Source: Chloroflexota bacterium
Lineage (GTDB): Bacteria; Chloroflexota; Dehalococcoidia; Lucifugimonadales; Lucifugimonadaceae
NCBI GenBank assembly: GCA_013204555.1
Contig: JABMNO010000049.1
Span: 1-64,000 of the forward strand
Direction: 5' to 3'
DNA: 64,000 nucleotides
Below the pieces are notes generated by a model. The model did not search any database. It saw nothing but the letters and a program-made list of their open reading frames with translations, and had not been told where the DNA came from. Below are positions 37,196-40,261 of the stretch, one piece after another. Positions within the stretch are counted from its first letter, which is position 1. Every line of letters starts with the position of its first letter. Both the position numbers and the translations under genes were made by a program.

Positions 37196-38821
37196 ATGGC
37201 AACAACACCTAAAAAAGAATCTACGGAAACGAGTTCATTTGGCACCGGTGGCCGAATTAGCCACGATTCTTCCGCGTATTATTCCCGGGCGATTCAACCT
37301 GACCTCGAGCCTGTTATTCCGTATGACGAACGGCCGATAGATCCTAAGTTTCTTAACTCCATCATCGAAACATCAAGCGAATCGATGAAAGAGTTACCCG
37401 ACTCATCTGTTCACCTGATGATCACCTCGCCGCCCTATAACGTCGGCAAAGATTACGATGATGATCTTTCGCTTGACGATTATCGGTCACTCTTAAAAAG
37501 GGTGTTGCGTGAGACCTATCGAGTGCTAGTACCAGGGGGGCGAGCGTGCATCAACATTGCTAACCTGGGCCGAAGGCCGTATTTGCCACTGCACTCATTT
37601 GTAATCGCTGACGCGTCAGAAATCGGGTTCCTGATGCGGGGTGAGATCATTTGGGACAAAGATGATTCGGCGGCCCCTTCGACCGCATGGGGCAGTTGGG
37701 CTTCTCCGTCAAATCCGATCCTGCGAGACACACACGAATACATATTGGTGTTCTCAAAGAATCGATTTGACAGGGCGAATCCATCCGAGCGGGAGTCAGA
37801 CATTACTGGTCCCGACTTTATGACATTTACTAGGAGTGTCTGGGTTTTCCCGGCTGAGTCCGCCACCAGAGTTGATCATCCAGCCCCATACCCCGTAGCG
37901 CTGCCTCAGCGATTGATGCAGTTATATTCGTTCCGAGGTGATGTGATCCTTGATCCTTTCATGGGATCTGGGACCACTGCAGTTGCAGCGCTTCACAGTG
38001 GCCGCAGATATGTGGGATACGAAGTCGATGAAAGGTATCGCCGGGCCGCCGAAGTCCGCATCGAATCGGAGCGAAATAGTCATTCAGCCAACGCCAATAT
38101 CGAACGATCTGTATTGGCTTCACCAAGTGGCGTACAGGGCGTCCTTGATCCCTCCATTCGTCCGGCGCGTACAAAAGATGCGATATCTCAAGTCGTACTA
38201 ACCGCTCGCAACAACATTCTGGGGGCAGAGGTGACGACTGATAGGCTTCAGCATTATTTCGATGACTGTTTTGCTGAATCAATGAAGTTCCTCAAGTTGA
38301 TTCCGGCGTGGGCCTGTGTTGGCTGTTTGACTGTCAAAATGGGAACTAAGCCCGAGCGTTGTCCGAAATGCAGCAGAAACACGGTGTTTGAGGTAGGTTC
38401 GTTCCAGAGTCGCGCATCCCATATGAGTCGCGTATTTGTCACAGCCCTGCGATCACTCTTGGATTACATTGAGATCGAGGTTTCGCAAGCCCCTCGCTCT
38501 GCAAAAACGCATGATCTTGAAATCGGTACTACGGCGCTAGCAGCTCGCGGATCTCCCAGATGGATCCCTCTTGGTCTGGAGGAGGAGGGGACACAGCTTC
38601 TTCAGGGTCCGGGGATGCTGAGGACTGATACTCAAAAAAAAGCTGCTGCGACGGCAGAAGCGTTTAAAGCTCAATTTCGAAATCGAAAGTTTATTGTCGC
38701 TACCAACGCTATGAACGGTGGTCCCGTTGAAGAGCCAACAAATCACATCGATTGCATCGTCAATGTTACGGATGAGGCTGGGCTGGATCATCTTCGGAAT
38801 CTCGCGACGGAACGAGATTAG
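37196..38821 (+). CDS. Site-specific DNA methyltransferase with long zinc-knuckle C-terminal extension
   Basis: 541 aa. The first 290 residues are a beta-class N4-cytosine/N6-adenine methyltransferase: catalytic LMITSPPYNVGKDYD (motif IV), SAM-binding DVILDPFMGSGTTAVAAL (motif I) and RYVGYEVDERY. The remaining 250 residues carry a CVGC...CPKC zinc knuckle (about residues 375-395), a possible coiled or helical stretch and a C-terminal segment (GMLRTDTQKKAAATAEAF, KFIVATNAMNGG). I cannot match this segment to a nuclease motif with certainty. It could be a target-recognition or fused restriction module. Base composition looks more A/T-rich than the flanking genes, and homopolymers of eight occur (T8 just upstream, A8 inside), which suggests horizontal acquisition. 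Confidence 0.8.
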   Translation: MATTPKKESTETSSFGTGGRISHDSSAYYSRAIQPDLEPVIPYDERPIDPKFLNSIIETSSESMKELPDSSVHLMITSPPYNVGKDYDDDLSLDDYRSLLKRVLRETYRVLVPGGRACINIANLGRRPYLPLHSFVIADASEIGFLMRGEIIWDKDDSAAPSTAWGSWASPSNPILRDTHEYILVFSKNRFDRANPSERESDITGPDFMTFTRSVWVFPAESATRVDHPAPYPVALPQRLMQLYSFRGDVILDPFMGSGTTAVAALHSGRRYVGYEVDERYRRAAEVRIESERNSHSANANIERSVLASPSGVQGVLDPSIRPARTKDAISQVVLTARNNILGAEVTTDRLQHYFDDCFAESMKFLKLIPAWACVGCLTVKMGTKPERCPKCSRNTVFEVGSFQSRASHMSRVFVTALRSLLDYIEIEVSQAPRSAKTHDLEIGTTALAARGSPRWIPLGLEEEGTQLLQGPGMLRTDTQKKAAATAEAFKAQFRNRKFIVATNAMNGGPVEEPTNHIDCIVNVTDEAGLDHLRNLATERD

Positions 38822-38922
38822 CGAATACGAGTTCGCCAGACAGTTGCAGTTAGTTGCCGAAAAGTTGATATACGCTGATAATTGCGAACATCAGGTAATG
38901 GCAACTTAACTGGAGAATCAGC

Positions 38923-39066
38923 GTGACGAACGAGGAATTGATTGCTTGGGCCGAGCGAAAATATTGCAACGACCACAGGAAATTTGGTGCATGCAAAGAC
39001 GCGGCATGCGACACGATTGATCAGGCGGTCGAAAAGATCAAGGAGTTGATAGCGGCAGCGAATTAA
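38923..39066 (+). CDS. Small Cys-containing protein (47 aa), function unknown
   Basis: A GTG-started ORF of 47 codons with GGAG eight bases upstream, a good ribosome site. The protein MTNEELIAWAERKYCNDHRK continues with two further cysteines (spacing C-x8-C-x4-C) and ends in a helix rich in Lys/Glu/Ala. It lies about 100 bases after the methyltransferase gene on the same strand and could be an accessory of it. I know no family. The coding signal is modest, but the ribosome site and the charged amphipathic C-terminus support translation. Confidence 0.45.
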   Translation: MTNEELIAWAERKYCNDHRKFGACKDAACDTIDQAVEKIKELIAAAN

Positions 39067-39139: not shown

Positions 39140-40261
39140 TTAGACCCGCTCCACCTCATTCGCATATATCGCGTCCCAATCAATATCAGCGCCCAGACCC
39201 GGAGCTTCCGGTGGATGCACCAGTCCATTGGAATCGATATCTACCGGGTTCTTGAGACCATATTTCGCTCCATCGGGATACGGAATCTCAAGATAGCGAC
39301 AGTTCTTGATCGCAAGCGCCACATGCAGGTTCGCAAGGTCCATTAGCGATAGCACCGTCATATGTGGCTCGCAGTTGACCCCAAACGCCTCTGCCAGATG
39401 CGCCGACTTGAGCGTGCCCGTGATCCCTCCCGTCCAAGAGACATCAGCTCGAATGATGTCCGCTGCACCGCCTTTGAGGAAATTGAGCTTCGAGAAGAAA
39501 TCTGAGTTCCACTCCCCTGCGCAGATCGGGATATCAAGAGTCCGCGAGAGCATCTCAAGACCGTGGATGTCGTGATCGTAAAGCGGCTCCTCCAACCAGA
39601 GGTAGTCGAGCTTTTCCAGCGCCCTACCTACACGAAGAGCGTCCTCGTGATCGTACGCGCCACCAACCGGGTCGCTCATGAGCTCCATGTCAGGCCCGAC
39701 TGCTTCACGCACAGCCCGGCAGCACTCGATATCGAGCTTAGCCTCACCGGGCGGATGCAACTTGAACGCTGTGTACCCGGCGCGTTGCGCTGAGAGCGCA
39801 AGATCCGCGTACTGCTGAGGAGTCTCAAGAAATGGGGAGCTTGCGTAAGCCAGAATTTCATTCCGATAGGCGCCCATGTACTTGTAGAGCGGAATTCCGG
39901 CCTGCTTCGCTCCGATGTCCCACAGTGCGACATCAAGAGGCCCGTACGCCACGAATGGCGTCAGCCCACCGAAACGATCCGCCTTGTGCGCTTTCTGCCA
40001 GAGTCGTTCACGGTCCAGAGGATCCTCCCCCAACAACTCGGGCCGGTACACCTCAGCGATAGCGTGAGCAACGCGCGCTCCGCCTTTCACACCCCAGCCA
40101 AAACCGTGCCCATCAATCCCGGCATCGGTCTTGACCGTGACTACCACTATCTCGGATACGGGCGGGACGCTGGAGGCCTCTCCTGGTTTTGCAGGAGCCT
40201 CGTCGAGAGCGCCCGGATCATCAACCCGCGAAATAATCAGCTCGATATCTGTGATTTTCAC
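39140..40261 (-). CDS. Enolase-superfamily (mandelate racemase/muconate lactonizing type) enzyme
   Basis: 373 aa, typical length. The capping domain begins MKITDIELIISRVDD. The barrel has AFKLHPPG (K-x-H base pair), metal ligands in LMSDPVGG, LWLEEPLYD and CAGEWNSD, and the general-acid/base His in NCEPHM. It abstracts the alpha proton of a carboxylate to dehydrate, racemize or cycloisomerize it; the substrate is not readable. The GTG start overlaps the acyl-CoA ligase stop (GTGA), so it is the last gene of that operon. A second paralogue at 59.8 kb shares the K-x-H motif. Confidence 0.88.
   Translation of the reverse strand: MKITDIELIISRVDDPGALDEAPAKPGEASSVPPVSEIVVVTVKTDAGIDGHGFGWGVKGGARVAHAIAEVYRPELLGEDPLDRERLWQKAHKADRFGGLTPFVAYGPLDVALWDIGAKQAGIPLYKYMGAYRNEILAYASSPFLETPQQYADLALSAQRAGYTAFKLHPPGEAKLDIECCRAVREAVGPDMELMSDPVGGAYDHEDALRVGRALEKLDYLWLEEPLYDHDIHGLEMLSRTLDIPICAGEWNSDFFSKLNFLKGGAADIIRADVSWTGGITGTLKSAHLAEAFGVNCEPHMTVLSLMDLANLHVALAIKNCRYLEIPYPDGAKYGLKNPVDIDSNGLVHPPEAPGLGADIDWDAIYANEVERV

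Follow-up and report, generated by a model that had tools for sequence, protein, structure and literature searches.

The fused gene and its surroundings

Within the window, as we call the entire 64,000-nucleotide stretch of Chloroflexota DNA analyzed here, one continuous gene encodes a DNA methyltransferase followed by a C-terminal module that occurs in other genomes as a gene of its own (Table 1). In a Pfam profile search residues 72-286 matched PF01555 (N6_N4_Mtase), and residues 4-296 matched the PADLOC profile MTase_II (PDLC03350). Motif IV (TSPPYN, with SPPY at residue 78, 37427-37438) and motif I (DPFMGSGTT, residue 253, 37952-37978) are both intact, and this half of the protein is 54-64% identical to stand-alone methyltransferases of the order. 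On the basis of these profiles and motifs it is a beta-class N4/N6 DNA methyltransferase, which bears out what an earlier note, prepared from the DNA letters without database searches, had claimed for residues 1-290. The enzyme should still methylate DNA, and because it carries SPPY the product is probably N4-cytosine.

The earlier note had also seen no separate restriction gene, and the locus indeed has none. The first ORF of any size downstream is enolase-superfamily-like and lies on the opposite strand. This gene, recognized by eye as enolase/mandelate-racemase-like (39140-40261), stands between the fused gene and an AMP ligase gene in the window and is absent from that place in the congener G001 (L008). 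The 47-aa ORF directly behind the fused gene has a plausible ribosome-binding site. The suggestion that it encodes an accessory of the fused protein found no support, as neither the 147 genomes of the order that were searched nor the related loci contained a relative.

Table 1. Features of the fused gene and the ORF behind it (positions in the window)
Feature	Position	Strand	Evidence
Gene fusing the methyltransferase with a degenerate restriction endonuclease, 541 aa, ATG start	37196..38821	+	Single ORF; the halves are adjacent separate genes in five other genomes
Methyltransferase half, residues 1-295	37196..38080	+	PF01555, E 2.4e-43; PDLC03350, E 3.2e-117
Linker without relatives, residues ~296-321	38081..38158	+	Outside the alignable part of either half
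Degenerate module, putatively of PD-(D/E)xK restriction-endonuclease type, residues 322-541	38159..38818	+	31-35% identity to five stand-alone genes adjoining the same methyltransferase
Putative zinc ribbon, C374-x2-C377 ... C389-x2-C392	38315..38371	+	Four Cys conserved in 6/6 family members, alignment A2
Predicted former active site: HDLE kept (residues 439-442), then A-L-A449-A-R451-G-S	38510..38554	+	E-x-K-G-S in five relatives
47-aa ORF, GTG start, GGAG 7 nt upstream	38923..39066	+	No relatives found

Relatives of the C-terminal module

Residues 301-541 produced no above-threshold match in Pfam, NCBIfam or PADLOC and nothing convincing in the PDB; sub-threshold matches in these collections, zinc-ribbon-like or due to chance, were set aside. 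We then searched the whole protein against 100 related genomes; in relatives the methyltransferase proved to be a stand-alone gene of ~300 aa. In two of these genomes, G043 and G067, a separate ORF directly downstream of the methyltransferase (247 and 238 aa, respectively, by listed start) matched window residues ~345-515. A profile made from the window, G043 and G067 copies and searched against the order yielded three more genes (in G880, G891 and G895), each again immediately next to this methyltransferase, which is therefore the neighbour of every one of the five stand-alone members. It is thus the separate genes of relatives that explain the module. By homology the module is a member of this zinc-ribbon endonuclease family, retaining 37 of the 57 positions invariant in the other members together with the four Cys (alignment A2). 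Because its stand-alone homologues sit directly downstream of the same methyltransferase, it can be regarded as a fused restriction endonuclease by descent. Of the segment previously singled out as conserved-looking, GMLRTDTQKKA is conserved in real homologues, as is TNA within KFIVATNAMNGG, and the segment is therefore not a chance pattern.

Scans of the six-member family against Pfam, PHROGs and PADLOC gave nothing convincing, the best PHROG match being RusA-like with an E-value of 0.0016 in 1/6 members. A PDB sequence search detected no match between the family and solved nucleases, and searches of phages, plasmids and viral contigs were empty. A genome-contig match (L010, Herpetosiphonaceae) was rejected as a chance match to a MoxR-type ATPase, and a weak match in G833 (E 3.6e-4), confined to the zinc ribbon region, was left aside. 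Since neither Pfam, NCBIfam, PADLOC and PHROGs nor the searched copy of the PDB matched it convincingly, the zinc-ribbon endonuclease family is uncatalogued.

Loss of the predicted catalytic residues

The five stand-alone members share an arrangement with CxxC...CxxC ahead of THD[LFI]E...[IL]-E-x-K-G-S, where the E-x-K segment appears as IEVK, LEAK and, three times, IETK. They thereby present the D...ExK motif and spacing of PD-(D/E)xK nucleases, and from this spacing and the gene context we infer a PD-(D/E)xK fold for the family, with the four Cys presumably binding zinc. An AlphaFold prediction of the window module alone from a single sequence reached a pLDDT of 34 and was unusable as a fold. 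The CVGC...CPKC pattern reported earlier is indeed present in the window protein at residues 374-392, with a 5-aa in-frame deletion between the Cys pairs relative to the other members.

The active-site segment of the window copy reads THDLEIGTTALAARGS. In place of the predicted catalytic Glu it has A449 (codon GCA, 38540-38542) and in place of the Lys it has R451 (codon CGC, 38546-38548), so that A-x-R stands where the five others have E-x-K and the D...E-x-K motif is no longer intact. A change from either Lys codon (AAA or AAG) to CGC takes three base changes, and R451 is therefore not explained by a single sequencing error. We consider the endonuclease half of the window protein very probably catalytically inactive. 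Some PD-(D/E)xK enzymes have a catalytic residue relocated elsewhere, and for this reason A-x-R is no strict proof of inactivity. The earlier idea of a fused nuclease consequently holds for the descent of the module, given its stand-alone PD-(D/E)xK-type homologues, but finds no support as regards its present activity, the catalytic Glu and Lys being gone; the same loss leaves the idea of an unrecognized defence effector unsupported. A specificity domain, also proposed, could be a secondary use only.

We also compared the pace of change in the two halves. The window module has lost 20/57 positions that are invariant in the other five members (35%), compared to 5/42 and 9/46 in leave-one-out controls with G043 and G067, respectively, and 14/127 (11%) in its own methyltransferase half (Fisher p of 0.01, 0.12 and 0.0003, in the same order); the excess is thus not significant against G067, while conserved positions were lost clearly faster in the nuclease half than in the methyltransferase half. 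On the nuclease tree the window copy has a terminal branch of 1.15 substitutions per site, as against 0.45 on the methyltransferase tree; the corresponding values were 0.56 and 0.52 for G043 and 0.79 and 0.26 for G067, whose ratio is also high.

History of the locus

The flanks of the locus are highly similar in the congener G001 (Fe-S oxidoreductase 88-93% and AMP ligase 86% identical), whereas its methyltransferase (L008:1456-2370) is 62.5% identical to the window sequence at 37196-38080 and has no nuclease behind it. In the methyltransferase tree the window enzyme is separated from the enzymes of its congeners. These observations fit a scenario in which a diverged methyltransferase copy carrying the nuclease took the place of the gene at this locus; fast divergence of the methyltransferase might also account for them. 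In G067, which belongs to another family, the methyltransferase, zinc nuclease and AMP ligase genes occur in the same order. Directly behind the zinc nuclease of that genome lies a fragment of a second methyltransferase (L012:4152-4361), 57% identical to residues 220-289 and apparently a degraded duplicate. Many relatives keep this methyltransferase, and no nuclease was seen next to it.

Exchange of partner genes and the predicted target site

ThaI (PF15514) cuts CG^CG. ThaI-family genes were found in 6/247 genomes of the order, with the same methyltransferase at 5/6 of the loci. In genus g10 plsY-like and aminotransferase-like genes come after the methyltransferase, and the gap between methyltransferase and plsY is occupied by the zinc nuclease in G043, by ThaI in G030 and by no nuclease in G012, G037 and G055. 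Similarly, closely related methyltransferases in genus g463 have the zinc nuclease as partner in G880 and ThaI in G892. Neither the window genome (G000) nor the members of alignment A2 contained a PF15514 match. Both partners adjoin the same methyltransferase and, in one genus, occupy a common locus; ThaI also has an active site of the D...IKT type. They differ in that ThaI lacks a zinc ribbon, is stand-alone and apparently intact, and shows no similarity to the zinc-ribbon family that a profile comparison could detect (hhalign probability 0.2%). Since the partners swap beside one methyltransferase they are expected to share its target, and as ThaI cuts CGCG, the predicted target of the methyltransferase is CGCG.

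Counts of CGCG provided a partial test. In G067 (400 kb), which has the intact nuclease, CGCG was the lowest of 256 tetranucleotides, with 1350 occurrences against 2098 expected (0.64, z -21.7), which supports a CGCG site. The other genomes were not decisive: the observed/expected ratio was 0.79 (rank 6) in the window genome, 0.86 and 0.89, a moderate avoidance, in G043 and G030, both with apparently intact nucleases, 0.87 in the congener G001, and 0.83 in G009, for which the search of the 100 genomes gave no match to the methyltransferase. In the 437 kb sampled from the window genome, CTAG, TATA and AGCT were avoided more strongly than CGCG, indicating that other avoidance pressures act there. 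No CGCG motif is mentioned for Chloroflexi in the lake metaepigenomes that have been published (PMC6329791), to which we gave no weight.

A third partner family was also observed, a 206-aa ORF containing ERADLL-x9-HVIEIERADSW (L027:2962-3582, + strand; L017:2139-2750, - strand; L163-L176). It adjoins the same methyltransferase at 14/14 loci, 13 of them in one genus. This family had no Pfam match above the cut-off (weakly DUF6997, E 0.022) and is possibly another nuclease, of a D...ExE type.

Interpretation of the fused protein

We interpret the fused gene, with good though not complete confidence, as what remains of a Type II restriction-modification system whose two genes now occupy one frame and whose endonuclease half is dead. 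According to this interpretation, the methyltransferase and endonuclease genes of the system would have been joined into one reading frame. The methyltransferase half would mark the predicted CGCG site, and the C-terminal half would derive from a zinc-ribbon PD-(D/E)xK-type endonuclease whose counterparts in relatives would cut this site in its unmethylated state. With A-x-R in place of E-x-K the fused protein would no longer cut, and it probably only methylates. In its expected ability to methylate without cutting it would resemble the orphan beta-class DNA methyltransferases, from which it differs in keeping a 220-residue endonuclease remnant in frame.

That remnant may have been kept for a use, as a pseudo-enzyme recognition domain that binds the target or dimerises and so tethers or regulates the methyltransferase, a possibility to which we give clearly less weight. 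No stop interrupts the 220 codons of the module and all of its indels keep the frame, and the four zinc Cys, HDLE, PG..R.DT.KKA and NA are preserved (37/57 invariant positions in all); the open frame and the kept Cys hint at some constraint. In a neutral simulation only 2.5% of runs were without a stop at 40% changed residues, whereas 38% and 21% were at 10% and 15%, respectively, so recent decay suffices to explain the open frame. The faster loss of conserved positions described above also argues against a retained use, as does the failure to find a second species with the fusion.

A protein that methylates and cuts, as a Type IIC enzyme would, by means of a relocated catalytic residue, appears unlikely to us. 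Type IIC enzymes, engineered (RM.Eco29kI, PMC3039593) or natural (TspGWI-type, PMC2700111), likewise combine methyltransferase and endonuclease in one polypeptide, with an origin plausibly by fusion of adjacent genes. Since the engineered Eco29kI fusion of R and M keeps both activities (PMC3039593), fusion as such need not abolish either one. The window protein furthermore retains HDLE, and the acidic residues of LEEEG follow the lost Glu at a distance of no more than about 15 residues. However, the motif Glu and Lys, invariant in five relatives, are both replaced and further conserved positions are lost too, so bifunctionality is not expected of a nuclease half carrying A-x-R. The window protein also differs from these enzymes in its N-terminal methyltransferase half and in lacking the large architecture of the TspGWI type. 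That two genes were joined by an error of assembly or sequencing, conceivable in a draft genome of 82 contigs and with no second genome found to carry the fusion, is very improbable, because there is no ATG where the nuclease start would be, a linker of ~26 residues replaces the overlap (G043) or 38-nt gap (G067) of relatives, and the catalytic losses cannot stem from one error; we also consider an artefact due to a frameshift unlikely.

Significance

Read as a restriction-modification remnant, the window gene would represent a naturally occurring stage on the way to losing restriction, in a bacterial order that would then include the intact, the fused-dead and the nuclease-less state. Of greater interest than the fusion are the uncatalogued nuclease family and the way it alternates with ThaI: the predicted site of the family, CGCG, is directly testable with the stand-alone genes. 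More speculatively, and with considerable doubt, the dead endonuclease may now serve its own methyltransferase as a domain for DNA binding or regulation, in a lineage that swaps up to three unrelated partner genes (the zinc-ribbon nuclease, ThaI and the 206-aa ERAD...EIER family). If true, such a conversion of a dead domain would be a stepping stone from a restriction-modification system to a solitary epigenetic enzyme.
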